A DNA stretch of 64,000 nucleotides from NCBI GenBank assembly GCA_021234155.1, contig JAJEKV010000092.1, positions 4,019,708 through 4,083,707 on the forward strand, in the 5' to 3' direction. Of this stretch, positions 19,910 to 54,309 are shown in pieces. The DNA is from Isoetes taiwanensis (lineage: Eukaryota; Streptophyta; Lycopodiopsida; Isoetales; Isoetaceae). The first letter of the stretch is position 1, and the number at the start of each line of letters is the position of its first letter. The translations under genes were made by a program, and so were the position numbers. The notes beneath the pieces were generated by a model that saw only the letters and a list, made by a program, of their open reading frames with translations, did no database searches and was not told where the DNA came from.

Positions 19910-20007
19910 CCGCCTACGATCGAGAGATCACCAAGGGTGAGAATATTATTATCTTTCCATTTCTTGTACATCCGTTTATGCACGATGGCGGAGGAGTAGA
20001 CTGGTCT

Positions 20008-22914
20008 CTATAAAAATTGGGATTCAAAAATATTAGTGTTGATGTATTTGTTTTCCGGTTGGAATGATGGAAAGTCCGATGAACCTTGTTCGAGGCAATA
20101 ATCATGTTTCTCATGAGAGGAGAAACATTGGGGGCTGGTTGAAGAGTTGTGAAAATTTGAATGTGGGAGATTGTGAGAGATGGATGCATGATGCTTTGGA
20201 TGGCTAATAGAAAGCCAGTATTTGATAAAGATTGAGGCAGGATTACTATTTGAGAATATAGACTTCCAGAAGTACTTACCTGCCAAGGCATAGCTTTGCA
20301 AGGCAATATTCTTACATCCCAAACCACCTTGAATTTTACTTCTGGTAATTGAGGACCAATTAACCATATGATGCTTTCCCCATATGAAATTTCTCACTAT
20401 TCTCTCAATCTGAGATAAATGCATTTGGGAGCTAGGAGTCTGAAGAGAAATAAATGTGGGAGGCTGCAATGATGAGAGTTTGCAATTAGAGTTCTTCCCC
20501 GCCAAAGAGAGACAGTTGCCATAATTCCCAAGTTTCTTTCTAATCCTCTCTACAATGGGATTCCAAAGACATTTGAGACTAGGATTGAGAGATAGAGGCA
20601 TGCCTAGAAGATTAGTTGTCTCAGTGTCAGTCATACATTTTATGCCAGCAATGCTATCTGTGTTGAAGTCCCCAATGATGGTACATTTATTTCTATTCAG
20701 GTGAATACCAGAGGCAGAACCAAAGTTATGAATAGTCTGCAAGAAAATGTGAATAATATTCAAGTCATTCTTGAGGAAACTGAAAGAGTCATCAGCATAT
20801 TGAAGGATTGAGAGATTCGTGATGTTGTCAGGAAGGTTTAGACCAACAATTGTCCCTGTTGATTGGAGATGAGTGATAACTCTAGTTAACATTTCAAGAA
20901 TGACTAGAAATAAATATGGTGCTAAGGGGCACCCTTGTCTAACTCCTCTAGCAAGGGGGAAGAATTGTCCTGGGGATCCATTAACAAGCACAGTAGATTG
21001 AGATCTGGAGTTAAGCCCCAGGATCAACTGGATAATCTTGTGGCCGAAGCCAAGTTTCTCAAGAGAGAATTTTAGAAAGTCCCATCTAACTGTGTCGAAG
21101 GCCTTTGAAAAATCAAGCTTTAAGAGAATGCAGTCTTGATTAGTCAGCTTGTTCCAATGCAAACCCTCCATGGCAGCAATGTAGTTATCTAGGATGAATC
21201 TATTTGGGAGAAATGCAGATTGATTGGAGCTAATGACTTCCTGAAGGTGAGTTTTGACCCTGTTTGCAATTATCTTAGCACAAACTTTATAAGTAGAATT
21301 TGTCAAGGAGATTGGCCTCCAATCAGAGAAGGATTGAGGATTGTCAACCTTTGGAATGAAAGTGATAAGTCCAGCAGAAAGAGCAGGGTGTAGGTGGTTT
21401 GAATTCCAGTAGCCTTTAATCATAAACGTGAAATCTTCTTTAATTATGTCCCAGAATTTAAGATAAAATTCGGGTGGAAGGCCATCTGGGCCAGGACTTT
21501 TCCCTTTGGCAAGACTTTTAAGAGTAGCAAAGATTTCCTCAGTGGAGGGGATAACTTCCACAGTGTTAGACATCACAATGTCACTGTGAAGACCATTATT
21601 AATAATCATATCTGAAAATGATTTGGCTTCCTCAACTTGAGTGGGGGTATCAATAGGTTGGGAGAAGATTGCAGCATACTTGGAGCAAAAGTAGTTAGAT
21701 ATCTCTTTCTGGTCATCAAGAGTAACCTCATTATCATCCTTAATGGTAGAAAGTTGGCTTTTCAAAAGCCTTGATTTGGCCACCCTGTAAAAAAACTTAG
21801 AGTTCCCATGATCCATTTTGGAAAAATATTTAAGCTTACATCTGATTGAGGAGCTTTTGGCTTCATATTCTTCAATGGTTTTGATGGCCATTTCTAGATT
21901 ACCTTCTTGCCAATGGAGCTCAATATTAAGGGGATCATCCTGAAGTTTCATTCTAACCTCTTTCATATCTTGAAGGTAAGCTCTTTTCTCAGCAAGCTTA
22001 TTGTCATGAAGGTGCTTGGACCAGTTCTTGATCCAGGATTTGGATTCTTTGATATTAGAATAGAATGACCTCATTGAGCTTGTAGATCTAACTCTGGGAA
22101 GGGAATTATAAAAAGCTTTGAAATCTTCACAGAATGCAGCAGAGTCCAGGAGGGAGCAATTTAGCTTGAAAGGTGTGTTACCATGCCTCTTTATGGAGAG
22201 TACATGCTTGGTGATTAGAAATTGAGGCTGGTGATCAGAGATTGAGGTACACTCATCACTGTGGACAAGGCAGTTATCCCAAAAGTCGTGCTGACTGTTG
22301 TTAATGTAGAATCTGTCGAGTGCACAGTACACCCTATTATTCCCTTCTTGTTTGTTTGACCAAGTATATGCTGATGTTGAGGATGGAATATGCTGAAGGA
22401 AGTGCATATCAAGCAGTAAATCCCATTGAGATCTTTCATCAGTACACATGTTTAAATCCCTACCAATTTTCATATCCCAGGTTGGGGTGTTGTTGAAGTC
22501 ACCTGCCATAATCCATGTATCACAGTTCTGAGTTGAGAGCCAGTTATTGATAGAAGTCCATGTTGTAGTTCTGAGTCTAGAATCAGTTGAAGCATAAATA
22601 TTGATGATCCCAAAAGAAATGTCCTTATTTGTGAGAACCATCATTTGCCGGGTCTTGCATGGGCTATTATAAATCAAATTTTGATTTAAGTGCTTCCAAA
22701 TAATGCCTGATCCACGAGATGTGCCTGTGGCTTCAATCCATATAGAGGAAAACCGGGGCCAATCCAATCAGCAAGGTTGGAGCACTCAAAATTAGGCGAT
22801 CTCAATTCTTGCGGAAGGATAATGTCCTTTGTCATAGTTTCTAATCTGAGATATAACTCTCCTCCTTTTTAAAGGGCCTTTTATTCCCCTGAGATTCCAG
22901 CTGAGAATCTTCAT
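20008..22914 (-). pseudogene. LINE ORF2: endonuclease and reverse transcriptase
   Basis: The ORF probably starts with ATG at 22914 (MKILSWNLRGIK, the usual start of an EEP endonuclease), with frame changes before 22767; from there 919 codons are open. In that frame: AGDFNN at residues 88-93 and SDHQ at 177-180 (endonuclease catalytic motifs); KGKSPGPDGLPPEF at 421-434, DWRPISLTN at 482-490, LDFSKAFDTVRWDFL near 551-565, RGVRQGCPLAPYLF near 607-620, and the catalytic QYADD at 656-660 (RT). IRNFIWGK-like sequence follows the RT. This protein nicks target DNA and primes cDNA synthesis from the nick. The final part of the frame (after about residue 850) is out of frame. Confidence 0.9.
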
Positions 22915-25471: not shown

Positions 25472-25586
25472 AGATTCCACCATCGCACGAGGATATGTCT
25501 CCTTGTCCTATTCAAAGCCATATTTCGACGAGGCTGCAATTCCAAAGTATTTCATTACCACAATTGCGGTTAGAATCTTTGATCGT

Positions 25587-25658
25587 GTCGATGTAGTATA
25601 GTGGTGAGAATTCCCGGCTGTCACGCAGGTGACCTGGGTTCGATCCCCAGCATCTGCG
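25587..25658 (+). tRNA. tRNA-Asp(GTC), diverged edge copy
   Basis: 72 nt. A and B boxes and GTC anticodon present. The anticodon stem has mismatches (CCCGG against GCAGG) and position 3:70 of the acceptor stem is mismatched, so it is probably not functional. T arm is fully paired (CTGGG/CCCAG). A T5 terminator follows (ATTTTTGG). Confidence 0.7.
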
Positions 25659-26238
25659 CAATTTTTGGCCTAACTTGTCCAAAATAATGTATATATTCAA
25701 AATCGAGATCTTATATTCAAAATGAACTAAAAGATTCCTATTTAAGAGACGGTGACGAGAGAAAAGAAATTAGTATCAGGTTACACCGGGGATCTGACGA
25801 TGTCAGCTAGTTCATCAAAACTATTTCAAGGACCTAGCTTTTAAGATATAGATAGCTTCCAAGCCAATCGGGCTTTGGATCTCAAGCTCCGGGTAAACCA
25901 TGGCAACGCAATTGTCGAAAATAGCATCCAGGCTCTAGAAAAAGCAATGCCTTTCTTTGGAACCCTATTGCATAGTTACGGTGTAAAAAGCGGTCGTCTT
26001 TGAGCCCTTGTTATGCTTCCATCCATTTCTCACACATGCGGATGGAGTACGGCAATTGCCACTGGGATTCAGCAACTAGACGCCCTGACGGCTCCAACGG
26101 AGCAAAAAATCACCTCCATTGGACCGGCGGATGTAGAGATATGCCAAACTGAAGTTAAGCTTCCAGTTATGGATGTCTCCGTGCCTTTAAATTTGTTTCT
26201 TTTTTTAGCGCGCCTTTTAAGCAGTCATATTTGAGTGC

Positions 26239-26857
26239 TTACCGGAGGTTCCTTTCATTGCCTTGCTTTTTGCCTCCTTCTGTGCCTACCCGAAAGTGGT
26301 TGATCAAATGTACATCCTGCTCAGCGACTAATAGATAGTCCACCACACTAGATCCTCCACCCTGATTCTCTTGTCTGCAGGTGCACTTACAGGAGGAAGG
26401 CCACTGTGCCAAGCCATTACAAATTACCAAGTCAAAGACACCACATAGTAGAAGCAATCGCCTGCCTTAAAGCGTGACGACTATCATCGATGTTAGGTGG
26501 CCAAAGCCTCGGCGGGCGCAGGTTGTAACACATCCTGAGCCAAAGGATCAAGTCTCATGGGCTGCTCTACTCCTGTCCGTGCATTGAAGTCCCCAAGGAG
26601 TACCACACTACCCAACTGTCTATGTTGCTGTATGTCATCATATAGATCGACATATGGAACTAGCCACATCCCACATCGGACAGTGGGCATGGTAAAAGTT
26701 GCTTTACGCGATGTGGAAAGTAGCAAGCGACCAAGAAGAGAGGGTTGCCACTACAATTACGCACCCGCACCCACAAGTACCGGTTGTGTCTGTCAATCTT
26801 GTGCGGGGAAAACCGACTGTGCCAAAGACTCCCGGTAATAACAGGCAACCCCTCCAT
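26239..26857 (-). pseudogene. endonuclease/exonuclease/phosphatase (EEP) domain fragment
   Basis: Three overlapping minus-strand frames read in order: 26857-26660 (LFLVACYFPH, where EEP proteins have ...V.NVY.P), 26726-26493 (VVLLGDFNARTG, the catalytic GDFN motif) and 26457-26239 (LLLLCGVFDLVICNG ... GSSVVDYLLVAEQ, with the GSSVVDYLL signature common beside the DH motif of LINE endonucleases). The subtype differs from the L1-type endonuclease at 22914-22200. Two frameshifts; no RT in the window. A LINE relic is the best explanation; a host EEP gene fragment is less likely. Confidence 0.65.
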
Positions 26858-27384
26858 GTCCCCTCTTGCCTGTGCAGCTATTGAAGACTGAGAAATGTTG
26901 ATAGCCTAAAAGATCAGGTAGCCTATGTCCTGCGTGCTCCCATGTCTCCATGAGGAAGATGAGATCCATACATGCAGCAACAGAGTTGAGACTATCTCAT
27001 TTCTGCCATGGGAAACCTCGACAATTCTAGGAGACCACCTGAAGGCACATTCCCTATTTGTTAGCAGCAGAGGCATGCGCAGATTGAGTTGTGGGGGAAG
27101 AGTGGGAAGTGGTAGCAGACTGAGTCATGTGGACAGAGTGAGAAGCAGTAGGGGTTGGGGCAGAGTGAGAAGCAGTAGGAGTTGGGGTGGCATATGACTG
27201 AGGAGTAGTGGCAGTGGCAGCAGGGCATGGGGCTGGAGCAGACGGTGGAGGAGCATGATCAGAGGAGGTGGGGGTTGTAGCTGAATGGCCCGGAGGGTCT
27301 GCAGCAACATTCGGTGAGCGAAAAATGTGCATCTTGCCTCGAACTAGTCCCGTAGCTCCTCCTTGACAGTGGATGCCTCGAACC
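26278..27384 (-). mobile_element. LINE-type endonuclease fragment inserted in first array unit
   Basis: Sequence absent from all other units, inserted between TTTTTGCCTCC and TTTGCCTTCACTT of the unit. Read on the minus strand it encodes a proline/serine-rich stretch then a frameshifted endonuclease domain. No RT follows. The termini show no obvious inverted or target repeats. On the plus strand 27130-27195 has a short tandem repeat (GAGTGAGAAGCAGTAGG, twice). Confidence 0.6.
27054..27332 (-). pseudogene. proline/serine/threonine-rich coding stretch upstream of the EEP fragment
   Basis: A 92-codon minus-strand frame of low complexity (SDHAPPPSAPAPCP, repeated PTPTASHS). It precedes the endonuclease fragment in the same direction and may be the linker N-terminal to the endonuclease. 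It could also be non-coding minisatellite. Confidence 0.3.
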
Positions 27385-27545
27385 TTGATTTGCCTTCACT
27401 TAGGTCCCTGGGCTAATTCCCCAAAAGTTCATATTTCATAATTCGTCATCAAGGGATGCCTCCTTGTCATATTCAAAGCTATATTTTGACGAGCCGATAC
27501 TTCAATAATATTCTCTTATCACAATTGCTCTTAAGTTTTCATCAT

Positions 27546-27617
27546 GTCGATGTAGTATAGTGGTGAGTATTCCCGCTTGTCATGCGGGTGACCCGGGTTC
27601 GATCCCCGGCATCGGCG
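27546..27617 (+). tRNA. tRNA-Asp(GTC)
   Basis: 72 nt, all four stems pair: acceptor GTCGATG/CATCGGC (one G-T), anticodon stem CCCGC/GCGGG with loop TTGTCAT, T stem CCGGG/CCCGG. Discriminator G. Followed by a T5 Pol III terminator (GATTTTTG). A- and B-box consensus intact. Type a flank (TTTTCATCAT upstream). Confidence 0.95.
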
Positions 27618-27745
27618 TGATTTTTGTTCTATCTCGCCTAGTGCATATCTTTCCAAAGTGTAGCACATGAATATGACTCCCACCCCTTAAAAGCTGTATG
27701 TTATGACTCCTACCCCCTTCAAACTGTGTTAGAGTTTCTATAATG

Positions 27746-27811
27746 CCAATCTCGCATAGTGTTGAGTGTTCTTGGTCATGTCGGCGACCCGTGTTCGATT
27801 CCACCACCGCA
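27746..27811 (+). pseudogene. decayed tRNA-Asp-like sequence (one per unit)
   Basis: Aligns with tRNA-Asp from CATAGTG (A box region) through GGTCATG (anticodon region) to GTTCGATTCC (B box). Acceptor stem is lost. Equivalent relics lie at 40915-40980, 42153-42219, 43405-43482 (with GTTCTTGGTCAT duplicated), 44661-44727, 45917-45984, 47168-47235, 48421-48490 and 49675-49742. Confidence 0.7.
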
Positions 27812-27910
27812 CGAGGATGTGTCTCCTTGTCCTATTCAAAGCCATATTTCGACGAGGCTGCAGTTCCAAAGTATTTCATTGCCACAATTGCAGTTACAAT
27901 CTTTGATCGT

Positions 27911-27982
27911 GTCGATGTAGTATAGTGGTGAGTATTCCCGCCTGTCAAGCGGGTGACTCGGATTCGATCCCCGGCATCGGCG
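27911..27982 (+). tRNA. tRNA-Asp(GTC), near-intact
   Basis: 72 nt; anticodon loop CTGTCAA in a perfect CCCGC/GCGGG stem. T stem has one A-C mismatch and one G-T (TCGGA/CCCGG). T5 terminator in GCAATTTTTGG. Type b flank (GATCGT upstream). Confidence 0.85.
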
Positions 27983-28699
27983 CAATTTTTGGCCTAACTT
28001 GTCCAAAATAATACATATATTCAAAATCGAGATCTTATATTCATTTCATCAAAACTATTTCAAGGACCTAGCTTTTAAGATATAGATAGCTTCCAACCCA
28101 ACCGGGCTTTGGATCTCAAGCTCCGGGTAAACCATGGCAACGCAATTGTCGAAGACAACATCCATTCAGATCAAAAGGCTGTAGAAAAAGCAATGCCTTT
28201 CTTTGGAACCCTATTGCATAGTTACGGTGTAAAAAGCGGTCGTCTTTGAGCCCTTGTTATGCTTCCATTCATTTATCACACATGCGGATGGAGTACGGCA
28301 ATTGCCACTGGGATTCGGCAACTAGACGCCCTGACGGTGCCAACGGAGCAAAAATCACCTCCATCGGACCGGCGGATGCAGAGATATGCCAAACTGAAGT
28401 TAAACTTCTAGTTATGGATGTCTCCGTGGCTTTAAATTTGTTTCTTTTTTTAGCGCGCCTTTTAAGCAGTCATATTTGAGTGCTTACCGGAGGTTCCTTT
28501 CATTGCCTTGCTTTTTGCCTCCCTCTTAATTTGCCTTCACTTAGGTCCCTGGGCTAATTCACCAAAAGTTCATGTGACGTTCGGCCGACGTTATACGCTC
28601 CGGGGCGTATATTATCTTTGCCGCCACGCATTACCGCCACCCCGATTGGCGTAATGCCAGCGTATAGCCAAGTGGGTAGCCCTAGGGGGCAACTTGCTA

Positions 28700-28912
28700 A
28701 GAATGTGCATTAGTATTAATGTGCACATTTTCCAATGTACACATTAATGTGGGCACACATTTCCATGTGGCCACTTGATGCCAAGTGGGCCATACCCATA
28801 GGTGCAATTAATGTGCACATTTTCCAATGTACACATTCATTAATGTGCACACATTTCCATGTGAGCACATTTGGGTGCACACATTTCCATGTGGGCACAT
28901 TTGGCCACCTAG
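28700..28912 (+). repeat. LTR subrepeats (ATGTGCACATTTTCC / CACATTTCCATGTG)
   Basis: Upstream of the LTR TATA box, words such as AATGTGCACATTTTCCAATG and CACACATTTCCATGTG recur seven or more times; many are self-complementary (ATGTGCACAT). Present also at 56695-56905. Such clusters in the U3 part of plant LTRs often act as enhancers; that role is inferred. Confidence 0.7.
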
Positions 28913-28993
28913 CCCTTAAAGGCAAGTGGGCCCATTTCCAATTATCCCACATGCCAAAAGGGGATAATTGGAAACCCTAGCCAACCCCCTTGT

Positions 28994-29001
28994 CTATATA
29001 G
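28994..29001 (+). promoter_or_regulatory. LTR TATA box, copy 2
   Basis: CTATATAG in a GTCTATATAGGGTTGG context, with GGAAACCCTAGC 8 bases downstream. Same at 56982-56989 in the copy 3 LTR. Confidence 0.6.
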
Positions 29002-30278
29002 GGTTGGAAACCCTAGCTAACCCAATTTTCGATTTTGGGGCTTGAGAACTCGTTTTGGTGCCTCAGCACCAAAACCGCATCCCGAACTTGATTTGGGAGA
29101 ATTGCATCCTTAGTTTCTCCGGGTTCGGCGTTTCAGCCGGGATGGTGGGAGCTCGGTCGGGGAGGAGCCCCTCAAGGATCAGGTATTTGGTCAATTAGAT
29201 AGTCTAAACCCTATTTTAGTCATTGAATCGTGAGGGTTTAGCCTATTAGATTGCCCACAAAGACCCTCTAGATCTCTAGATATAGATTCTAACTAAAGAA
29301 CCTAACTCTATGTTGTAGATTAGATTTAGTTCTTTAGTTCTCTCTGTGGAAGTATATGGATGATGCATCTCTATGAACTCCTTGTATTGGGAAGGGGGTA
29401 GAGACCTAAAGCTTGTAGTTGATGCTCCTAGAGTAGCCTCTCTAGCACTGCTTGTAGATGCGACTGTCGCAAGAGCCACACACGGTTGTGGGTGAAGGGG
29501 CCAGACGGCTTATAAGGAGGTTCATGTTCGACTCTTGAGCGACCCTATGGTGTGTTAATGCCGGGGTCACGTGACTAGGTCTAATGGCTTGCCACTGCGC
29601 GTGTGGGCAAGGCATGGGCTCGACACTTCGTGAGGTGGTGAATATGACCTTCCATTGAGTTCAAGTCGGGATATGGGCGGTGGCCCTCTAGTCACCTTGA
29701 GTCAGCATTGTAGATCTCGGAGGGAGAGATCCCTACCGCCCCATCGGAACTGGGGAGATGTAACCCGGGATATAGCCCAGCGGCTGCTATGCATCCGTGA
29801 ACTCTGGTCAGGTCCCAACACTTTTCAATCTACTACGCAAAGTGTGCACGGGAGGGGCGGATGGAGTGGACAACCCTAGGCCATGTTCTTATGCCCGCCC
29901 AAATCCATTGCCATGAATTTCATGCGCAATGAACTCGGAGACCCAAGCTTGTCGGTCCATCCACATTAATGCGAGCCTTGGGTAGGATTCCCTATGTGAT
30001 GTCTTTGATCTTTGTCTATGCGGATATGTGGAGGACCATCCTTCGTGATGGTCATATGATGTTGATGTATGTGCTAACGACATGTATGTTTTACGCCCGC
30101 AGACTAGGTAGGCCCCGAGGGAGCGGGGTGCAATGACCCTTCCACTCTTCCCACTTTGGAACCCGATTACGGTTGCGGTGTCATGTGGAGGGCCCCCGTA
30201 TTTAACGCGGAGCTGGTATGGGGATGAACTCTGGTTGTATCACGGTGAGTGCACCGTATAACAGTAGGGGACGTCCGA

Positions 30279-30290
30279 TGGTATCGAGCT
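30279..30290 (+). promoter_or_regulatory. primer binding site (tRNA-iMet type), copy 2
   Basis: TGGTATCGAGCT, one base short of the plant initiator-Met complement TGGTATCAGAGC. Located at the LTR end. Copy 3 has the same sequence at 58343-58354. Confidence 0.75.
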
Positions 30291-30487
30291 ATGTTCTTGG
30301 AGACCAAGAGCAAAGCAGCCGCCATGTTCCCGATAGCACTAACTTGATAGGATCCTCAAACCTCAAAAAAAAAAAATGAGAAAATTTTTCTCATTTTTGT
30401 AGTTTATGCTAAGCTAGTAACAGATTAAAATGAATAGAAACGTTAAAAAGACTAAAATTGATGAGCCAACATCCAAAAAGTAGAATT

Positions 30488-30540
30488 GGTCTCACACGTC
30501 GCGCCGGAGATGATTTCTACATTTTAGAAATCGGGTCAAT
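30488..30540 (+). promoter_or_regulatory. palindromic motif 1a, copy 2
   Basis: GGTCTCACACGTC, then GCGCCGG, then GATTTCTA-CAT-TTTAGAAATC (30512-30532), then AACGTCTTG. Inner palindrome is perfect; the outer right arm is degraded. First of four copies in this element. Confidence 0.75.
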
Positions 30541-30671
30541 AACGTCTTGAACATTCAACTGACACCAAAAAGTTGTAAATTACAAGTAAAAATATCTTGC
30601 TAATTCTAAATTTAAGCTAGAATTAGTAGATTTAGCATGTTACATGTTAATTTAATAGTGGGCCCCACCAT

Positions 30672-30740
30672 GTCTCACACGTCGGCGGCCGGGGATGGGT
30701 TTCTAGATTCTAGGAATCGGGCTGGAAAAGCGTGTGAGAC
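30672..30740 (+). promoter_or_regulatory. palindromic motif 1b, copy 2
   Basis: GTCTCACACG (30672-30681) and CGTGTGAGAC (30731-30740) are perfect reverse complements. Between them GGCGGCCGG and a second, inner inverted repeat TTCTAGA-TTCTAGGAA. Located 75 bases upstream of a TATAAATAG box. Confidence 0.85.
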
Positions 30741-30814
30741 CTTACTTAATTAGGTGTTTTAGATGCCTTAGACAACCCAAAAGGGTAGTTTAAAAGTTGA
30801 CCTAAAATTGGCCC

Positions 30815-30823
30815 TATAAATAG
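30815..30823 (+). promoter_or_regulatory. internal TATA box before ORFx, copy 2
   Basis: CCCTATAAATAGAAC, a strong plant TATA context, followed 60-130 bases later by GCGATCTTCGGC and the first ATG of the ORFx region (30922). Copy 3 equivalent at 58869-58877. Confidence 0.6.
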
Positions 30824-30921
30824 AACTGGACCCCTCCCATTTTTCCCCGGTCCTTCGAGAACTTCGGCTCCTATTGTCAAGGCGATCTTCGGCGCGTAGC
30901 TCAATCGATTTAACCGTAAAA

Positions 30922-31960
30922 TGATGGCCCGCGATCGGCAGCGATCAAGAAAGGGAAGCCTAGCCATGCCTGGATCCTGAGCCCGGGCGGGGATTCTTCT
31001 CGCAACGCCTTCTCCACGGCGACTAATCTTCGGCCAAGTGAGGAAGCAGGGGGACCGAGGCACCCAGGAAAATCTTGAGGACGGTGGACGCCATGAGCGA
31101 GATCCTCAATGAAATTGAGCTAAGCAGGAGGCGTAGCCTGGCAGCGGGAGCAACACGGGGACGCCAAACCACGTGAGGAGCAGAGGGAACACCGGGCAGG
31201 GGAGGCGGGAAGAGAGGAGGAGCAGCCACGAACTCACCCCCGGAAGAAAGGTCGACCTGACGCTTCATCCACAATCACGGCCAAGGAGCGCCACGGAGCA
31301 GGACAAAGAGTTCGGGAGAGGCTAACCCGACTACTGGCCGGACCCAAGAAGAGGAGGGCCAAAGCCGTGAATGGCAAAAGGCAAGAGGAAGCCGGGTGAA
31401 GGTAGGAAGAGAGCGAAGGTCCGGTCATCAACGAGCCATCGGGAGGTGAGACCCGCCCATCACAAGCCATTCGGACCAAGACTACGTGCCAGCGCGAGGC
31501 GGGGCAAGCTCTTCAAAGCCCCCGTCAGAGGAAGAGGTACCCGGCGAGCGGCCCCAAGAGCGAGGAGGAGGCCGGACGGTGGCGAAGCCCCCACCATTTC
31601 GGCGTGGGATAGGGTCAAGGCCCCACGGCCCGCGGGGAAGCCTATGTGATAGACCCCTTAAAGGTCTATCGAGGAAGAGGATCGAGGGAGCAGCAGCGTA
31701 TATGGCGAAGTGGGAGGCCTACAACACCTATTACCGGGAGCAGGGGGTGAGAACGATTGAAGGCGGGCACCCGGCGAAGAGCCGAACACTAAAGCCCCCT
31801 CCACCAAAGCCCAAGCCCCCACGAGCACCGGGAAGAAGCGGAGCAAGAAGAAACAGAGGGAAGGCGGGGCACTCAAGGAGATCCGCCACTTCGAGAAGAG
31901 TTACGGACTCGATTCCCGAGGCGCCGTTCCGGCGTCCGGGTCCTTGAAGTCATTCAAGAA
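30922..31960 (+). pseudogene. accessory ORFx: basic, proline-rich protein, frameshifted
   Basis: Coding content is spread over overlapping frames (31371-31649, 31486-31947). Recognisable pieces include EILNEIELSRRRSL (from 31099), AYMAKWEAYNTYYREQG (about 31700), a PPPPKPKPPRAPGRSG linker and, near the end, QEYNTDTRGVMGEML. The product would be Arg/Lys/Pro-rich with a helical tail. Copy 3 has the same pieces at 59160-60140 (NEIEQ, YNTYYQ, EYNADMR). No known domain; not a gag or pol domain. Position between LTR and gag is unusual. Could be RNA-binding, judging only from composition. Confidence 0.45.
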
Positions 31961-32281
31961 TACAACACGGACACGCGCGGCGTGATGGGCGAGATGTTGC
32001 TATGTTTGCAAGAGGCTAGAAGCCCACATAGTGAAACATTTTGAAGATTCAACTACCGCGACGGTGCACGCGAAGAGGGTTACCCTCATGAGGCGAGGAT
32101 ATGTATCTTGCCGGGCACATCAAGGGTGAACGACCACGAGTTTTGTAAATAACGAAAAATTTTGTTAATATAAAGAAAATTTTGTGTAAATAAAGTGTCA
32201 AACCTTGTTTAAATCGGTCAAGATATCGATCCCTAGCTTTTGTTTTAATTAAATTGGAGTTTTGAGCAAAATTGAGGCGAT

Positions 32282-32345
32282 GTCTCACACGTCAGCGCCA
32301 GACGATTTCTACATTTCGGGGAATGGTGGGCATAACGTGTGAGAC
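32282..32345 (+). promoter_or_regulatory. palindromic motif 2a, copy 2
   Basis: GTCTCACACG (32282-32291) and CGTGTGAGAC (32336-32345) form a perfect 10-base inverted repeat, around GATTTCTACATTTCGGGGAA. 1.6 kb downstream of motif 1b, in front of the next ORF. Confidence 0.85.
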
Positions 32346-32482
32346 CATGCCCAAAAAAATGCCCAAAACAGCTCCAAATCGACCAAGTAAGGGGTCAATT
32401 GCGCCTAACTTTCGATGAGTTTAGTGGAATTACAGCCTTAGATCACCTAAATTGAGTAATCCTAGCCCAATCAGGGACCTAT

Positions 32483-32546
32483 GTCTCATACGTCGGCGCC
32501 GGGAATGATTTCTACATTTTAGAAATCGGGCTTAACGCGATGAGAC
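32483..32546 (+). promoter_or_regulatory. palindromic motif 2b, copy 2
   Basis: GTCTCATACG and CGCGATGAGAC flank the perfect inner palindrome GATTTCTACATTTTAGAAATC. About 180 bases upstream of TATAAATA. Confidence 0.8.
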
Positions 32547-32723
32547 CCCCATTCATTCATCACCAAATGATCTCCAAATTGCACAATAAGTTCGGTAGCT
32601 CTCCTTAGCATGCTCAAACCCTAGAAATATACTTCAAACTTGCAATTGGATCACTTAATAGGTTAGAATTGCCTAATCTCAGTAAATTCTAAGTCACCCA
32701 AAAATTAGGGTTTTCCCCTTTTC

Positions 32724-32731
32724 TATAAATA
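32724..32731 (+). promoter_or_regulatory. internal TATA box before ORFy, copy 2
   Basis: TTTTCTATAAATAAGTTCCCC, followed by a GCGATCTTTCGGCTC segment also present (GCGATCTTCGGC) after the first internal TATA box. Copy 3 equivalent at 60832-60839. Confidence 0.6.
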
Positions 32732-32888
32732 AGTTCCCCAATTCTCAATTGGTACCTCGCAAAAATTGCTCCCCCTTTGCTTAGGCGATCTTTCGGCTCC
32801 CGAGGTAAACGCATCCGTTTGATACTCCCTTCCTTGCTAGATCAATGGCTCTTTGCTGATTTGAGGCGATGGTGCAAGCCCGGTGCCC

Positions 32889-34250
32889 ATGCCTCTCGAG
32901 GCGGATGTCAACGACATCTTCCAAGTCTTTGTGAAAGAAATCGACATCCAAGCTAATGCTAAATGCAACCCCGGCTTATAGGCGGGTGCTAGCGAGAATT
33001 CCAAGCTAGGGTAGGACCCTCCCTTGTTCAAGTTCCCCTTGCATAGGATACTTTGTTCCCCGCCAATCCCTTCAAGAGGCCTTGGGCGATGTCCCCAACA
33101 TCGCCAAATACTTGACTAATAAGGCGCAGAGGCTACCCGATTACATGGTCCCCGACAAGCCAGCGGGACCAAGTACTTCTCTTACACCGCCGCCCCCTAG
33201 CCATCTTCTTATCCCAATGCAGAGAACCCGATGGGGGCAACCTCTATCCCTCCGATGGAGGTAGACCCCATAGGCGAAAGCAGGAGGAAGAGCAAATGCC
33301 GCTGCCAGTATCAACAAGAACAGGAAGCAAGAGAGGATGAAGAAGAGCCGGACGACGAAGGATACACTGAACTTTCGAGGGACGAAGAAAGGCGCCAAGG
33401 AGAGCAGGAGCTGATCAATTTTGAGCGAGCACACGGGGCATCGGAAGTTGCTCCCCCTCCGGGCTAGGCATCACAAGCCTAGCCCCTATCATCATCGACG
33501 GAGAGGAGTATCTACTCCTCGGCGACATCCGTAACCTCCCGAATGTAGGAGAGGGAGCCCGGGTTGGAATAATCGCTGCTCCACAGGTGCGGCGGAGACC
33601 GACCCGGACGACTTCATCGTCGGGGAGCATCCAGACTTCCCGGCTCAAGTGAGGGAGTCCGACACCTACACGGGGAGGCGACCTCCGGATATCCGGGCCT
33701 ACAGCAAGCATCGGGCAATTGATGGACGGCGGGAGCTGCCAACAGAGGAGGAGTTCCTCGCCCTCCAAGAGCGGATGGGGATCAGGTGGGAAGACCACGA
33801 GCATCCTAATGCCGGGTCCGCCGATATCACCCCCGCCAAAGGAGAAGGAATCGACCTCGGGAGGTTCGACCGCACAATTGAAGACTACGAGGAGCTCACC
33901 GAAGTAGAGGTCGGCGAGAGTACGCCGGGCAAGACAGGCTGGAGGCCAAACAAGCGAGAAGCTTCGGCGACACACAACAACGTCGCTCGGTACTACTTAC
34001 CACCGGCCGATGGATGGGAGAATAGCGGTAATTCACATAAGTTCAGTCCGTGGGCTGAAGAAGGAGTGTTTATGCCGATTGCACTCGGGCCGGCAGCATG
34101 CTCGAATAGCAACAAATGTCGACTATCTTTGTCTTAGTCAAGAGGGCAATGGCACTTTCGACCTCTTCGACTTCGCCATCCCCCACCCAGACGTCGAGGC
34201 GAGATTAGCGATGGATGCGGCCCTTACATCCCGACCGCTGGGGTAGAAGA
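32889..34250 (+). pseudogene. accessory ORFy: acidic protein, frameshifted
   Basis: Starts probably at ATG 32889 (MPLEADVNDIFQVFVKEIDI). Later frames: 33231-33467, highly charged (EDEEEPDDEGYTELSRDEER); near 33500 IIIDGEEYLLLGDIRNL; 33649-34137, RAIDGRRELPTEEEFLALQE and GRFDRTIEDYEELTEVEV; and 34010-34246, ending near PHPDVEARLAMDAAL. About 450 codons in all. No domain known to me. Matching pieces exist in copies 1 and 3, so it is a real, conserved part of the family. It lies between the second palindrome/TATA spacer and the gag spacer. Confidence 0.5.
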
Positions 34251-34389
34251 CCCGTGAGAGCTATCCAGGAGGCTCGTCGGCAAGCATCATCGGGAACTTG
34301 GGTCACTTTCGGTAGGGGCGGCCCAAGTTAAGAAGTTTCTTGAAGACAACCCCGCCTTACCTACGATTTCAAGACTAGTTAGACTCTTG

Positions 34390-34576
34390 ATCCGGGAGAC
34401 TTTTTGTATTTAAAATATTATATGATATATAAATACAATTCTCTTTGCACTTTAAATGTTTTGTTGATATATTTTGCCCCACAATTATACCAACAAACAT
34501 AAACAATGCAAGAGAACAAATGGAACTAACCATATAGCCATTAATCACTTGTGGATGCAGCTAGAGGGCTAAAGCC
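34390..34576 (+). promoter_or_regulatory. AT-rich spacer with TATATAAATA before gag, copy 2
   Basis: TATATAAATA at 34426-34435 in a 150-base AT-rich spacer, followed by ACCATATAGCCATTAATCAC. Nearly identical spacer at 62585-62745 in copy 3. No palindrome pair here, unlike the two upstream spacers. Confidence 0.5.
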
Positions 34577-35810
34577 TTGGGAACGACAAGCTGCGAGACC
34601 TTAAAGAAGAGCAAACCCCTTGAGACCACCCAGGCAAGGAACCTATTTGAAGATAGGGAACCCATGACCCCAGAGCGGGGAGATAGCCCGGATGAGGGGC
34701 GGATCCGGGCAGATAAAGGCATTACTTGTCCCGTGCAGCGGGAGTGGGTTCGGTGGGCAATGCTCGATTGCCGCAAGCATCAGCTCGGAGGGGGAAGGAA
34801 GGGACAAGAAGAGGAGCAAGAGAAGGAGATCCCCGGTCAGGAATCTTCCCGACTCAAGTTGAACTCGGACTCAGGACTACGAGGGAAGAGGAAGAGCGAG
34901 GCTCGAACCAAACAGAGGGAAGGCAGAGGAACACCCGGAGGGACGACAAAGAGATACCGGGGCCTCCACTACCGGAAGAAGGTAGATTCCGACTTGGCAA
35001 AATGTATGGAAGGCCCGGAACTAGAACAGTTCTCGGGGAGAACAGTCGGAGGATTGGAAGCGAGAGGCATGGGTTTGGACGAGATGAGCGAAAATCACGA
35101 AAATGCTTATGGCATGAAGGATAAGGACAAAGGCGAGTTGCAACAGCCAACTTGAAAGGAGCCATTTCGGATTTGGTGGAAGGGCTATGCAAAGGCACAC
35201 GGTTTAAGCAGGGATGCTTGTAAGTTGAGAAAAAGTTTGCTAAAGCCTTCAAAGCGCCATTACGCCCAAGGGAACATAAGTCCAAAGATGATGTTAGCTT
35301 TTTACTGAGTTAAAAGCAAGGCAACAAATCAGTTCAGAAATATCTGAGAGGAATTCATGAGGCTAAGGCTGTATGTGCCGGTTGGGAGAGAAGCATGCGA
35401 GAAAGCTATATCGAGGGGCTGAATGAGGAGATCCCGCAAGCTTGTGAGAGCAATAAACCCTAGGACGATGATCGAAGCGTAATCCAAGGCTATAAGCTTG
35501 CAGGGGGTCGGGACCTCGAATAGCGGGCACAAGCAGCTAGTACTTCAGGAGAAAGGCAAATGACGAGGAAGCTATAGCCCTGTGGCAGCTTTACCCAGTC
35601 CGGCTAGAACCCAATATGGTGGGAACCGGGGAAGCGGCGGGGAGAAGAAGCGAGGTGTCCTTCAAGGACAAGCGAGGAGAAGTCAAACTACTCCAAAGCG
35701 GTGCAATCCTTTTGCAAGCGATGCCCAAGGAAAAGAGCGAGGAGTGCATAGCGGTTGTGCCGAGGGTGCTTCCAGCCGGGCCATAGGGACGACAAGAACC
35801 GCCCCTCACG
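34577..35810 (+). pseudogene. gag: gag, copy 2 (frameshifted) with CCHC-like knuckle
   Basis: Frame 34577-35155 is basic and Glu-rich. From about 35160 the capsid core follows (WWKGYAKA- and KFAKAFKAHYA-like words, spread over frames), then QKYLR and YVPVGREACEKAI matching the capsid C-terminal part. The knuckle at 35758-35799 reads CRGCFQPGH then RDDKN: CX2CX4H with Asn where the last Cys is expected, possibly a base error. Collinear with gag of copy 1. Confidence 0.7.
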
Positions 35811-36029
35811 TCATGAGTGCGGCTCTAGCGGAGTTGGGAGATTGGGAAGCTCCTCTCGGACGACGGCGGCGAAGGCCAGCGACTATATTCGTGGTGAGTG
35901 TCATATCTTTGCCTTAATAGATCTGAGCAAGCAAGCCGAGAGCCGATTATAAGGTAATTTCCACGAGTAGGGAAGGCTAAAGCTAAGTCCTTCATAGTCT
36001 TGATAGACTCGGGGAAGTAGCCATAACTT

Positions 36030-36330
36030 TGCATCCCCCGAATGGTTCAGATGTTGAAGTTGAAGCCGCTAAAGTCAAAACCAAGACCCGTTGTTTTAGC
36101 AAGTGGTGCGGTAAAGGCGGCGGCCGGGCAAGAGAATTAACCGACATCGACTTGCGGGGATTAATATCGGATGGGGGCAGAAGTAATGGGCATTGGAAAG
36201 TATGACTTGATCATAGGAATGGAGTACCTTGGGCCAGCGGGGGCCATTATCGCTGTGGAAAGCGGAAGGTGACCTTCCGAGGCGCCCGGCGGCAAGATCA
36301 TTGAGATAACAGGTAAAGAAGTTGTTCCCA
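36030..36330 (+). pseudogene. pro: protease domain, copy 2
   Basis: Broken frames. GIGKYDLIIGMEYLGPAG is the strand and hydrophobic segment corresponding to [14 protein letters not shown] of copy 1. The DTG region near 35995-36015 survives as IDSG in one frame (ATAGACTCGGGG). Confidence 0.6.
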
Positions 36331-36486
36331 TCATGCGATTGCATGTCTTCTAAACTAATTTTGTTCAAGTGCATCAAGAGTGAGCAAGTGGCATACATCT
36401 TCAAGCTTGAGATTAGTGAGCCGGAATCGGAAGGAAGCAAAGAAGACCTTGGCTCGGCACAGAAGTTGCCGAAGCAAGTATCTCGG

Positions 36487-37400
36487 CTAATCCGCGGAGT
36501 TCCATGATCTCTTTCGGATGAGATCAAGCAGCTCCCCTCCTATAGGGGAGTCGAGTGCGAGATAGCTTTTCGAACCAGGAACAAAGCCAACAAGCAAGGC
36601 TCCATATAGAATGACAACACGGGGAGTTGCCTGAGCTGAAAAGCGATTTGCGGGGCTGCTTTCGACCCTAGGTTTCATTAGACCTAGTGTCTCGCCGCTT
36701 TTGGGCGCCCATTCTTTTTGTCAAGAAGAAGGATGGATCTTTGAGGATGTGCATAGACTATAGACGGTTGAATAAGCACACCATTAAGAACAAGTATCGC
36801 GCTCCCAAGATCGGGGCGACTTGATGGATCAGCTCAAGGTGCAAAGATCTTCTCCAAAATCGACTTAAGGTCAGGTTATCATCAGATCAGGATAAAGGAA
36901 GAAGACATCCATAAGACCGCCTTTAGAACGCGGTATGGGCATTATGAGTTCACAGTAATGCCTTTCGGCTTATCAAATGCCCCTTAGCGTTCATGAGGCT
37001 CATGAGCGATATCTTCGAGGGGAGTTCTGGACACCTTTGTGATTGTTTTCTTTGACGACATTTTGGTGTATAGCAGATCCCTTGAAGAGCACGTACAACA
37101 CTTGAGAAGAGTGCTAGAAAAGTTGAAGAGGCACCAGTTGTACGCCAAGTTGTCGAAGTGCCACTTCGCAACAGAAAAGGTGGAGTATCTAGGTCATGTG
37201 ATCTCAGCAGAAGGCATCTCAACAGACCCCGCCAAGATTGAAGCCGTCATTCAGTGGCCGGCGCCGAAGAATGTGCATGAAGTCAGAAGTTTCCTTGGCC
37301 TAGCAGGGTACTACAGGAAGTTCGTAAAGAACTTTGCTAAGATAGCAGCGGATTAACAGACTGGACGAGGGAGAAGGTGAAAAGATTGGGTAGAGCATTG
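36487..37400 (+). pseudogene. pol: reverse transcriptase and connection, copy 2
   Basis: LPSYRGVECEIA near 36530, [20 protein letters not shown] at 36710-36770, then [20 protein letters not shown] (36875-36930), FGLSNAP, and [15 protein letters not shown] in the clean frame 37039-37356, whose [13 protein letters not shown] and [19 protein letters not shown] are textbook Ty3/gypsy. The catalytic box is FFDD, as in copy 1. Frames change at about 36650, 36815 and 36990. Confidence 0.9.
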
Positions 37401-37439
37401 GCACAAGAAAGCCCAAAGGGGTTTGAATTGTTGAAGGAA

Positions 37440-37821
37440 GCTTTAACAACAGCCCAGATCTTAACCCCGGACCGGAGAAAGATAAGCTTGTAGCAACAGA
37501 TGCGAAAAGTAAGATAGCTACAGTGCGGTGCTTATGCAAGAAGAGTGTGGTAGCGTATGATTCAGGAAGATGATGGCCTTGCCGAGCCAGCGCTACCCAA
37601 CGCGCACGATCGGGGAGTTGCTGGCGGTTGTCAGGGCATTAAGAATATGGAGGCATTATCTCTTGGGAAGGAAGTTCCAATTGGATACCGACCATCAGAG
37701 CCTCCAATATGTATTCACGCAACCACACCTTAATCTGAGGCAGCGGAGATGGATGGAGTTCCTCGAAGAATATGACTTTGATATAGTCTACAAGCCGGGG
37801 AAGCTCAATGTGGTAGCGTGA
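37440..37821 (+). pseudogene. pol: RNase H domain, copy 2
   Basis: VATDAK near 37490, then 37570-37821: QRYPTRTIGELLAVVRALRI (catalytic Glu), FQLDTDHQSLQYVF (catalytic Asp) and RRWMEFLEEYDFDIVYKPGK, the conserved end of RNase H. One frameshift at about 37540. Confidence 0.85.
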
Positions 37822-37852
37822 TGCACTTTCAAGGCATCCCACGACAACTAGA

Positions 37853-38900
37853 GTGCATTGCAATGCAATTTCGACGCTCTCCAGCGACTTTGGTAAAAGG
37901 ATTGAAGAGTCCTTGCCAACGGATGTGGATTTCAGGGAAGTATGGGCAAGCCTTTCGAAGGAGGCCAGAACAGATAAAGAGCGGGAGGCCTTCAAGCATT
38001 ATAAGAAGGAAGGCAACCTGTTATACCATAAGAACAAGTTGTGCGTACCCGAATCATCAGGTGTAAGGAAGTTGATCCTCCATGACACGCACAACAGCCC
38101 AATAGCTGGCCATGCGGGATTCATGAAAACATATTTCAAAGTACGCAGCAGCTATTATTGGCCAGGAATGAAGAAGCAGGTAGCTCGCTACATCAAGGAA
38201 TGCCAGCTATGTCGGCGGACAAAGCGGGGCGGCTTAATTCGGGGGCATTAGAGCCATTAGCGGTGCCAAACGCTAAGTGGGAGGTAATCAGCATGGATTT
38301 TATCACAGGACTCCCAAGATCGGTGAGAGGCAAGGATGCCTTGATGGTAGTGGTCGACAAGTTGTCGAAGATGGCACATTTTGTGCCTTGCAGAACCACA
38401 GATACAGCCATGGATACAGCAAAGCTCTTCACCAAAGAGATCTTCAGGCTTCATGGCATGCCAAGGGAGATCATCTCCGACAGAAGGGATCCGAAGTTCA
38501 TGAGTGCCTTTTGGCAAGACCTCTTTGCGACGATCGGGCGAAGCTATCCATGAGCACGGCATATCATCCTCAGACGGATGGCGGGGCGGAAGCGGACCAG
38601 CGGGATTTTAGAGGACATGCTACGAAACTATATGCGGAATAAGCAAAGTATGTGGGAAGAATTTATTCACTTGGTGGAGTTTGCATACAATAGCACCAGC
38701 GAGGAATCATCCCAAATGTGGCCGTTTATGATCAATTACGACTATCGATGCCCTAACTCGGACACTTGGCACAACCCGTGTCAAAGGTGGAAGTTTCGCG
38801 GCGGATGTTGGCCGATATCGGCGGCTTCGTAGAGGAAGTTCGTGGCTATCTCGCTAGCGGCAAGAAGTGATCAAAAGAGCATCGTAGACAAGCATCGAGC
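37853..38900 (+). pseudogene. int: integrase, copy 2 (HHCC and DDE core)
   Basis: The frame 37853-38251 holds the zinc finger: [20 protein letters not shown], then ECQLCRRTK, complete. Next frame: [16 protein letters not shown] (first Asp), [31 protein letters not shown] (second Asp, one extra residue), then TAYHPQTDGGAE and ILEDMLRNYM (catalytic Glu region) and WEEFIHLVEFAYN. Frames shift at about 38230 and 38555. Better preserved than copy 1. Confidence 0.9.
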
Positions 38901-39059
38901 GATAAGAGAGTTCAAAGTTGGAGATGATGTTTGGCTCAAGATTAAGGTGAAGCGGTGGCTTCGGGATCGGCAATTGCAAGAAGCTTGCTCCAAGGTGGGC
39001 TGGACCTTTCAGAATAGTTAGAAACTAGGCAATCAAGCCTACAAGCTAGACTTGCCGGA

Positions 39060-39330
39060 CACACCTAAAGATTCATAAGGTCTTCCACGTGAGTTCTTTG
39101 AAGAAGCATACCCCAAATCCGGGCGAAGTCTTGGATTAGGCTTATTTGTTGGAAATGGCCGGAGGAACAGACTGGAAATAGTTCGAATTGATTCTTGATA
39201 AAGCTTTCAAGAAAGCGAGGAGATCGAGAATTCCTCCAAATTATTTGGTCAAGTGGAAACACTTACCGGTGGAAGGCATACGTGGGTACTTAAGAAAGAT
39301 TTAGTAAGCGGTACCCACGGTTTATGGAGC
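39060..39330 (+). pseudogene. int: integrase C-terminus with chromodomain, copy 2
   Basis: IHKVFHVSSLKKH near 39070, then LILDKAFKKARRSRIPPNYL (about 39190) and VKWKHLPVEG, the chromodomain core with Tyr and Trp. Broken by stops and shifts, but clearly homologous to 6272-6640. Confidence 0.75.
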
Positions 39331-39421
39331 AATGGGGACGGCAAAGGTCATCTCGAAGAAATCGAAACCGGGCATGTCGATTTGTGTAGGTTAATTCTTG
39401 TATAGTTAAGATTAATCTCGC

Positions 39422-40255: not shown

Positions 40256-40425
40256 TGTGGCGTTCGGCCACGATATCGCTCGGGGCGTATATTATGCTGC
40301 CACGTCGCGTATTACACCACCCGATTGGCGTATGCGTAGCGTATAGCCAAGTGGGTAGCCCTAGGGGGGCAACTTGCTAGAATGTGCATTAGTATTAATG
40401 TGCACATTTTCCAATGTACACATTT
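40256..40425 (+). repeat. truncated 3' LTR of chromovirus copy 2
   Basis: Collinear with the first 170 bases of the LTRs at 28573 and 56569, up to CCAATGTACACATTTCTAG, where array sequence (CTAGTTATGGATGTCTCC) takes over. The remaining 1.5 kb of LTR is missing. Confidence 0.85.
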
Positions 40426-40718
40426 CTAGTTATGGATGTCTCCGTGCCTTTAAATTTGTTTCTTTTTCAAGCACCTTTTGGTCAATTTGATAGTCTAAGG
40501 TCCCTTTCATTGAGTGCTTAAGGAGGTTTCCTTTCATTGCCTTGCTTTTTGCCTCCCTCTTCATTTGCCTTCACTTAGGTCCATGGGCTAATTCACCAAA
40601 GTTCATATTTCATAATTAGTCATCAAGGGATGCCTCCTTGTCATATTCAAAGCTATATTTTGCGAGCCGATACTTCAATAATATTCTCTTGTCACAAATG
40701 CTCTTAAGTTTTCATCAT

Positions 40719-40782
40719 GTCGATGTAGTATAGTGGTGAGTATTCCTTTGTCAGCGGGTGGGGTTCGATCCCGGCATCGGCG
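40719..40782 (+). tRNA. tRNA-Asp-like, type a, damaged
   Basis: 64 nt. A box and acceptor stem present; anticodon arm shortened to TTCCTTTGTCAGCGGG and the GACC before the T stem is missing. Confidence 0.5.
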
Positions 40783-41076
40783 TGATTTTTTGTTCTATCT
40801 CGCCTAGTGCATATCTTTCCAAAGTGTAGCACATGAATATGACTCCCACCCCTTAAAAGGCGTGTGTGTTATGACTCCTACCCCCTTCAAAGTTGTGTTA
40901 GAGTTTCTATAATGCCAATCTCGCATAGTGTTGAGTGTTCTTGGTCATCCCGTGACCCGTGTTCGATTCCACCGGTATGCGAGGATGTGTCTCCTTGTCC
41001 TATTCAAAGCCATATTTTAATGGGCTGCAATTCCAAAGTATTTCATTGTCACAATTGCGATTAGAATCTTGATCGT

Positions 41077-41141
41077 GTCGATGTAGTATAGTGGTGAGTA
41101 TTCCTTTGTCAGCGGGTGACGGGTTCGATATGGGCATCGGG
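41077..41141 (+). tRNA. tRNA-Asp-like, type b, damaged
   Basis: Same shortened anticodon arm as the type a copy 358 bases upstream; T arm reads GGGTTCGATATGGG and the acceptor end lacks one base. Confidence 0.45.
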
Positions 41142-41951
41142 CAATTTTAGCCCTAACTTGTCCAAAATAATGCATATATTCAAAATCGAGATCTTATATT
41201 CAAAATGAACTAAAAGATTCCTATTTAAGAGGCGGTGGCGAGAGAAAAGAAGTTAGTATCAGATTACAGGGGATCGGCGGTGTCGACTAGTTCATCAAAA
41301 CTATTTCAAGGACCTAGCTTTTAAGATATAGATAGCTTCCAACCCAACCGGGCTTTGGATCTCAAGCTCGGGTAAACCATGGCAGCGCAATTAGCCGAAG
41401 GCGGCATCCACTCGGATCAAAGGCTCTAGAAAAAGCAATGCCTTTCTTTGGAACCCTATTGCATAATTCGATTGTACAAACAAAACGGTCGTCTTTGAGC
41501 CCTTGTTATGCTTCCATCCATTTCTCACACATGCGGATGGAATGCGGCAATTGCCGCTGGGATTGACAACTAGATGCCACGGGCGGTTCCAGCGGGCAAA
41601 AATCACCTCCATCGGACGGCGGATGCGAGAGATATGCCAAAGCGAAGTCAAGCTTCTAGTTATGGATGTCTCCGTGCCTTTAAATTTGTTTCTTTTTTTA
41701 GCGCACCTTTTGGCGGTCATATTTGAGTGCTTCAGGAGGTCCCTTTCATTGCCTTGAGTGCTTACAGGAGGGTTCCTTTCATTGCCTTGCTTTTTGCCTC
41801 CCTCTTAATTTGCCTTCACTTAGGTCCCTGGGCTAATTCACCAAAAGTTCATATTTCATAATTCGTCATCAAGGGATGCCTCCTTGTCATTTTGGCGAGC
41901 CGATACTTCAATAATATTCTCTTGTCACAATTGCTCTTAAGTTTTCATCAT

Positions 41952-42023
41952 GTCGATGTAGTATAGTGGTGAGTATTCCCGCCTGTCACGCGGGTGACCC
42001 GGGTTCGATCCCCGGCATCGGCG
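41952..42023 (+). tRNA. tRNA-Asp(GTC), type a, canonical
   Basis: 72 nt with perfect anticodon stem (CCCGC CTGTCAC GCGGG) and T stem (CCGGG TTCGATC CCCGG), discriminator G, T5 terminator. Confidence 0.97.
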
Positions 42024-42317
42024 TGATTTTTGTTCTATCTCGCCTAGTGCATATCTTTCCAAAGTGTAGCACATGAATATGACTCCCACCCCTTAAAAGC
42101 TGTGTGTTATGACTCCTACCCCCTTCAAAGTTGTGTTAGAGTTTCTATAATGCCAATCTCGCATAGTGTTGAGTGTTCTTGGTCATGCCGGTGACCCGTG
42201 TTCGATTCCACCAGCGCACGAGGATGTGTCTCCTTGTCCTATTCAAAGCCATATTTCGACGAGGCTGCAATTCCAAAGTATTTCATTGTCACAATTGCGA
42301 TTAGAATCTTCGATCGT

Positions 42318-42383
42318 GTCGATGTAGTATAGTGGTGAGTATTCCTTTGTCAGCGGGTGACCGGGTTCGATCCGGCATCGGCG
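42318..42383 (+). tRNA. tRNA-Asp-like, type b, damaged
   Basis: 66 nt. Anticodon arm shortened (CTTTGTCAGCGGG); T arm CCGGGTTCGATCCGG lacks two bases of its 3' strand. Confidence 0.5.
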
Positions 42384-43208: not shown

Positions 43209-43275
43209 GTCGATGTAGTATAGTGGTGAGTATTCCCTTTGTCGCGGGTGACCGGGTTCGATCCCGGCATCGGCG
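43209..43275 (+). tRNA. tRNA-Asp-like, type a, damaged
   Basis: 67 nt. Anticodon arm reads CCCTTTGTCGCGGG; T arm short by one pair. Confidence 0.5.
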
Positions 43276-43580
43276 TGATTTTTTTTGTTCTATCTCGCCT
43301 AGTGCATATCTTTCCAAAGTGTAGCACATGAATATGACTCCCACCCTTAAAAGGCTGTGTGTTATGACTCCTACCCCTTCAAAGTTGTGTTAGAGTTTCT
43401 ATAATGCCAATCTCGCATAGTGTTGAGTGTTCTTGGTCATGTTCTTGGTCATCGTGACCCGTGTTCGATTCCACCAGCGCACGAGGATGTGTCTCCTTGT
43501 CCTATTCAAAGCCATATTTCGACGAGGCTGCAATTCCAAAGTATTTCATTGTCACAATTGCGATTAGAATCTTCGATCGT

Positions 43581-52280: not shown

Positions 52281-52289
52281 CATTTGCAT

Positions 52290-54290: not shown

Positions 54291-54309
54291 CCTATTGCTA
54301 CAACTATAA

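Follow-up and report, generated by a model that had tools for sequence, protein, structure and literature searches.

Paired hairpins and TATA boxes as putative internal promoters of two accessory genes, the first ending in a histone H3 domain, in a chromovirus family of Isoetes taiwanensis

What do paired palindromes, each pair followed by a TATA box, do inside a retrotransposon? The question is raised by a 64-kb stretch of the Isoetes taiwanensis genome (hereafter the window), in which two copies of one chromovirus family, copies 2 and 3, carry such pairs ahead of two open reading frames, ORFx and ORFy. We hold with moderate confidence that each hairpin pair is a cis-regulatory part of a putative internal promoter, one for each of these accessory genes. 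The features referred to below are, in window coordinates:

1-8908, forward strand: copy 1, another chromovirus, with the end of an ORFy-like gene (approximately 1-290), gag, pol, chromodomain and 3' LTR (8038-8908)
28574-30278, forward strand: 5' LTR of copy 2, matching the 5' LTR of copy 3 and its own 3' stub
from 30279, forward strand: primer-binding-site-like TGGTATCGAGC of copy 2
30489-30552, forward strand: hairpin m1 of copy 2, outer 3' arm mismatched
30672-30740, forward strand: hairpin m2 of copy 2, 10-base outer arms perfect, RNA fold z -4.2
30815-30822, forward strand: TATAAATA upstream of ORFx in copy 2, exact in 39 of 40 family copies
30921-32133, forward strand: ORFx region of copy 2, frames broken, a long tail and a C-terminal histone H3 domain (approximately 31869-32133)
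32189-32194, forward strand: AATAAA 3' of ORFx in the copy 2 sequence, kept in 41 of 42 copies
32282-32345, forward strand: hairpin m3 of copy 2, 10-base outer arms perfect, inner part damaged, RNA fold z -4.6
32483-32546, forward strand: hairpin m4 of copy 2, RNA fold z -2.4
32724-32731, forward strand: TATAAATA upstream of ORFy in copy 2, exact in 42 of 42 family copies
32845-34250, forward strand: ORFy region of copy 2, second accessory gene, frames broken
34428-34435, forward strand: third TATAAATA of copy 2, upstream of gag, without hairpins nearby
34561-39400, forward strand: gag-pol region of copy 2, with reverse transcriptase, RNase H, integrase and a chromodomain-like C-terminus
40256-40424, forward strand: 3' LTR of copy 2, a stub only, adjoining a tRNA-Asp repeat array
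58543, 58728, 60389 and 60590 (stretch 58543-60656), forward strand: hairpins of copy 3, in the same arrangement as in copy 2
58869 and 60832, forward strand: TATAAATA of copy 3, with an ORFx with H3 match between the two

Copy 2 has the traits of a Ty3/gypsy chromovirus, that is, two LTRs and a primer binding site, and reverse transcriptase and RNase H before integrase; ORFx and ORFy sit between the 5' LTR and gag. Its 5' LTR matches that of copy 3 at 88% (28574-29466 with 56568-57448), and the order in pol is RVT_1 (7e-11 and 2.2e-13), RT_RNaseH (4.9e-17) and Integrase_H2C2 (3.1e-20), with rve at 2.1e-5, below its cut-off. The gag of copy 2 has no Pfam match. The C-terminus of the copy 2 gag-pol region receives no Pfam chromodomain call and, stops included, matches the chromodomain piece of copy 1 at 52% over 91 aa (E 1.4e-23), the match reaching into the chromodomain. 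In copy 1 the chromodomain at the end of pol was detected by PF00385 (9.3e-9), the LTRs are 94.8% alike over 878 nt, and the primer binding site, TGGTATCAGAGC, is at L057:863, L057 being the locus just left of the window. Copy 2 interrupts a tandem array of approximately 1.25 kb units with tRNA-Asp genes (10, ARAGORN; 25473-28573 and 40424-50700).

The first-pass annotation had described paired palindromes followed by TATA boxes in copy 2, and we find four hairpins of 64-69 bp at 30489-32546, as two pairs upstream of ORFx and ORFy, with TATAAATA at 30815 and 32724. The distance of roughly 180-200 bases that it gave for the pairs agrees with start-to-start spacings of 183 bp (m1-m2) and 201 bp (m3-m4), the perfect 10-base outer arms that it saw in two copies belong to exactly two of the four (m2 and m3), and the four motifs and both TATA boxes that it assigned to copy 3 were all located. 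Of the four hairpins of copy 2, only m1 and m4 have the inner 21-mer exactly, m2 being a variant and m3 damaged, and in neither window copy does m1 have a 3' outer arm that matches. With up to three mismatches, the inner palindrome gives eight matches in the window, corresponding to five sites on one or both strands, and none in 100 shuffles; TATAAATA occurs eight times against 3.05 expected, a count reached by 2 of 100 shuffles. The whole motif is above chance, unlike the outer 5' arm alone, whose 12 window matches (up to three mismatches) against 6.91 expected are within chance. In copy 3 the third TATAAATA, at 62610, also lies upstream of gag without hairpins nearby.

According to the internal promoter reading, promoter 1 (m1, m2 and the TATA box at 30815) would drive ORFx and promoter 2 (m3, m4 and the TATA box at 32724) would drive ORFy, both being RNA polymerase II promoters inside one Ty3/gypsy chromovirus family, while the genomic RNA and gag-pol would still begin in the 5' LTR. 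Transcription would begin at the TATA boxes of the modules, the hairpins would be bound as double-stranded dyad sites, and ORFx and ORFy would be co-regulated. ORFx may act on chromatin, either that of the element or that of its target, a role that we infer from the fold of ORFx alone.

The host assembly (1.66 Gb, 1110 contigs) has 943 matches to the inner palindrome with up to two mismatches (464 and 479 by strand, where a near-symmetrical site may count twice) and none to its reversed control. From approximately 100 places listed of the 943 matches, 40 loci were fetched, 20 by match spacing and 20 from single matches; since they were chosen by palindrome matches, every one has at least one exact inner palindrome. 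The chromovirus family of copy 2 is present at all 40, with m3 and m4 in their element flanks, and among the first 20 loci ORFx, its 3' region, module B (m3, m4) and ORFy were found in 20/20 and the LTR end and module A (m1, m2) in 18/20. Including the two window copies, we read m1 in 39, m2 in 40, m3 in 42 and m4 in 42 copies, leaving out m1 of L014, L015 and L037 and m2 of L014 and L015 (module A was unmatched there). Upstream of ORFx TATAAATA is exact in 39/40 (the remaining copy has TATAAAT) and upstream of ORFy in 42/42, and a GGCGATCTT box 3' of the TATA box, common to both modules, is present in 34/40 (ORFx) and 41/42 (ORFy); the third TATAAATA, upstream of gag, is in place in 26/39. 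Median hairpin spacing is 186 (179-195) for m1-m2 and 199 (189-205) for m3-m4, and the TATA box follows m2 at a median of 71 nt (69-74) and m4 at 176 nt (173-181). Such a TATA box at a fixed distance from upstream elements is as predicted for an RNA polymerase II promoter. Constancy within one family is, however, explained by common descent, so that the counts establish the features as family traits and do not reveal their function.

The hairpins of the two modules resemble each other (similarity 0.74-0.81), while the module spacers (0.54, against 0.51 shuffled) and the outer flanks (0.47-0.49) do not stand out in this way, and the stretches from TATA box to ATG of the two ORFs show more similarity than shuffles do (matched by 0/300 and 1/300). 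The alikeness of the hairpins may reflect constraint, repeated insertion or conversion, and we prefer constraint. Alike hairpins in unrelated flanks are also what a tiny foldback or MITE-like element would leave behind, as functionless remnants, after four insertions or gene conversion, a history that we consider distinctly improbable, given that no target-site duplication was seen by eye in the window copies and that 40/40 fetched loci hold the hairpin within the chromovirus and none outside it (40 loci of 943 matches). One duplication as the origin of modules A and B was weakly supported by the spacers (z 2.9 and 1.9) and was set aside. Outside the host, the palindrome was found neither in viral contigs, where three had a 16-base arm match and the ORFx and ORFy pieces had no relatives, nor in prokaryote genomes.

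As RNA stem-loops of the genomic RNA the hairpins could take part in packaging, dimerisation or processing, or in internal initiation ahead of the two ORFs, and most copies do fold better than shuffles: z is below -2 for m1 in 28/39, m2 in 34/40, m3 in 41/42 and m4 in 37/42 copies, with medians of -3.2, -3.5, -5.2 and -5.1. A longer, near-perfect 68-nt form, letter-identical at m3 of five loci and at m4 of two, has an RNA fold of -40.7 kcal/mol, and the inner stem of m2 is maintained through G-U pairs. Within the window, on the other hand, m1 of both copies has a z near zero or weak, as do m2 and m3 of copy 3. The first-pass annotation had named compensatory changes in the arms as a check for RNA stem-loops, and these did not appear: in 39, 39, 42 and 42 copies of m1-m4 (one further m2 was left out) pairing within a copy is no better than pairing between arms exchanged among copies, 4743, 2106, 4736 and 2482 of 5000 arm-swap permutations equalling or exceeding own pairing. 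An m4 pair that looked compensatory between the window copies is mostly a mismatch elsewhere (among 16 m4 with both arms readable, nine C/A, two T/G, five C/G and no T/A). Because transposon copies decay neutrally after insertion, the arm-swap test weakens the RNA reading, short of excluding it, and we regard that reading as unlikely, though deserving of serious weight.

We treat the two halves of the earlier promoter-or-RNA proposal differently: TATAAATA, GGCGATCTT and AATAAA are kept, so that promoters are plausible from the sequence, while the arm covariation that would go with RNA stem-loops was not found in the 39-42 copies per class. Moreover, the 5' arm of m1 persists (GTCTCA in 28/39) where the 3' arm is often lost (TGAGAC in 20/39), which would suit a sequence read as DNA. 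Several observations count against promoters, namely the third TATAAATA without hairpins, the good folding of the hairpins as RNA, and that no E2F consensus is found inside the modules (four matches lie elsewhere in the window); fixed spacing also proves little, as the copies share descent. On balance we favour internal promoters over both RNA elements and inert foldbacks.

What the putative promoters would express is clearer for ORFx than for ORFy, for which no Pfam, PDB, family or structure match was obtained. A 38-residue piece of copy 2 ORFx matches H3 in the PDB (4e-4), and a frameshift-tolerant alignment to H3 scores 172 for copy 2 and 124 for copy 3, with 25 shuffles each at 37.3 (sd 4.0) and 37.8 (sd 4.5); the same alignment on ORFy and gag is at background level. 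The joined ORFx frames of the window copies were chosen with H3 in mind, and the 38-residue piece, the frameshift-tolerant alignment and the unbroken genomic copies are free of that choice. Among six ORFx pieces fetched from the family, three match PF00125, i.e. L032, which is unbroken (E 4.2e-28; H3.3 in the PDB at 2.5e-30), L023 (7.4e-28) and L018 (2.1e-26), while L013 is weak (0.045) and L031 and L027 give no match. ORFx thus ends in a histone H3 domain, which the first-pass annotation had not recognised, the unbroken genomic copies settling its identity. The domain is 60% identical to a host canonical H3 (L056). With its divergent H3 fold and a few CENH3-like residues ORFx shares features with CENH3/CENP-A, and CENH3 was suspected on the basis of those few residues; this identity was not supported, as loop 1 has the length of canonical H3 and is not longer, and identity to CENH3 of Arabidopsis (55%) and maize (53%) is lower than to host H3.

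Both window copies and most of the family copies fetched have broken ORFx frames, and differences found in single copies are near neutral (25 synonymous, 41 not), as might be the case if the H3-like segment were a captured dead gene fragment and not a working part of the element. Copies 2 and 3 (28574-35848 against 56568-63994) diverge far more in GC-rich coding sequence than in AT-rich spacers, a pattern that resembles what sequencing error in methylated DNA, or genuine damage, would leave; as sequencing error is the probable cause, broken frames say little about whether a copy is dead. Codons were compared with those of L032 in 39 of the 41 other copies (L041 and copy 3 were too short; 416 indels were excluded), and substitutions at codon positions 1, 2 and 3 number 115, 85 and 332. 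Overall 334 differences are synonymous and 198 are not (27% synonymous expected), approximately 0.22 of the neutral ratio, and those common to at least four copies are likewise mostly synonymous (28 against 14). Between L023 and L032, which lie on different contigs, there are six nucleotide differences, every one at a third position. Together with unbroken H3-tailed ORFs of 468-485 aa at three other loci and 55 of 150 scored PF00125 matches in open frames of at least 300 aa, these data make a dead fragment very improbable.

The three unbroken ORFs are part of a larger set. Searching the genome with PF00125 gave 8704 first-look candidates, of which 150 were scored; the best 15 look like canonical H3 genes (L056 was the one read), and none of these is among the 55 in open frames of at least 300 aa, 36 of which are in frames of at least 400. 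The 55 of 150 suggest that very many H3-tailed ORFs may be present in the host genome. Those at L053 (484 aa), L054 (485 aa) and L055 (468 aa) match PF00125 with E 3.2e-42, 5e-42 and 1.9e-43, have an H3 core 86-88% identical to host H3, and are mutually alike at 43-73% over 401-462 residues, H3 part included. The ORFs that follow at L053 and L054 are mutually related (E 5.6e-38). The second ORF of L053 weakly matches ORFy pieces from six loci (E 5.6e-7 to 2.8e-5, the set compared comprising a few dozen proteins), which the second ORF of L054 does not match. At L055 the H3-tailed ORF is followed by one related to copy 1 gag (56% over 132 residues, E 9.3e-43). Immediately left of the window, L057 contains the LTR end and primer binding site of copy 1 and an H3-tailed ORF whose frame is broken (E 1.5e-13 against host H3), and the ORFy-like frame of copy 1 (185 aa, 54% to L053, E 7.6e-47) extends into the window. 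A single H3 capture for all families was considered and not retained, since a small tree does not resolve L054 and places the window's family on a long branch.

Hairpins, and TATAAATA upstream of ORFx, are absent at L053, L054, L055 and L057; L053 has one TATAAATA between its two ORFs. On this basis the accessory gene pair looks like a shared trait and the hairpin-TATA modules look like an addition of the window's family, so that the promoter arrangement would not be needed for such genes generally, a further point against the promoter reading. The other H3-bearing loci must express two pre-gag ORFs without such promoters, a point in favour of the RNA stem-loops weighed above.

Retrotransposons are policed by host chromatin marks, many of them on histone H3. 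Elements with their own H3-type protein, in many copies and with signs of purifying selection, would open a direct study of how chromatin is handled, and the hairpin-TATA modules hint at a way in which one family may express accessory genes apart from gag-pol. The window's family shares with plant Ty3/gypsy chromoviruses the LTRs, the primer binding site, the order of reverse transcriptase, RNase H and integrase and, putatively, a chromodomain-like C-terminus, and differs from them by two added ORFs between 5' LTR and gag, of which the first has H3 at its end, and by a hairpin-TATA module before each. In the parts of the literature consulted, the nearest case found of a separately promoted accessory gene is gene23 of the plant element Grande, transcribed from its own promoter (PMC7264820). 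Accessory genes are kept in the family there and in Retand, as here, whereas in the portions of those sources drawn upon theirs are for the most part located 3' of pol, ahead of the 3' LTR, are often antisense and include no histone (PMC7264820, PMC11963269). Orchid Gypsy elements with an AlkB RNA-demethylase domain as an extra ORF similarly keep a captured host domain, though a different one, and a histone is not among the domains from 121 angiosperm genomes that are named in the part of the text consulted (PMC9289625). Phrase queries of the open-licence literature, preprints not included, listed no title or opening of an abstract that describes a histone-encoding LTR retrotransposon; such queries may miss other wordings.

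A more speculative scenario, to which we attach a rather low probability, is that a large group of plant chromoviruses acquired an H3 gene, joined it to a tail specific to the element and retained it with ORFy before gag. The element-made H3 would replace host H3 on element cDNA or chromatin and, its tail differing from that of H3, may resist H3K9 methylation or be read by the element's integrase chromodomain for targeting, and the paired hairpins of the window's family would be operators co-regulating both genes, perhaps via ORFx or ORFy itself.

Elsewhere in the window, a LINE-type non-LTR element occupies 18575-22767 on the minus strand (PF00078 reverse transcriptase, E 7e-35; 919-residue frame), and a LINE probe gave one weak match, in a bacterial record, against prokaryote genomes. 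Finally, the region at 50704-56320 consists of nested direct and inverted repeats with arms of 60-104 nt that are up to 99% complementary.
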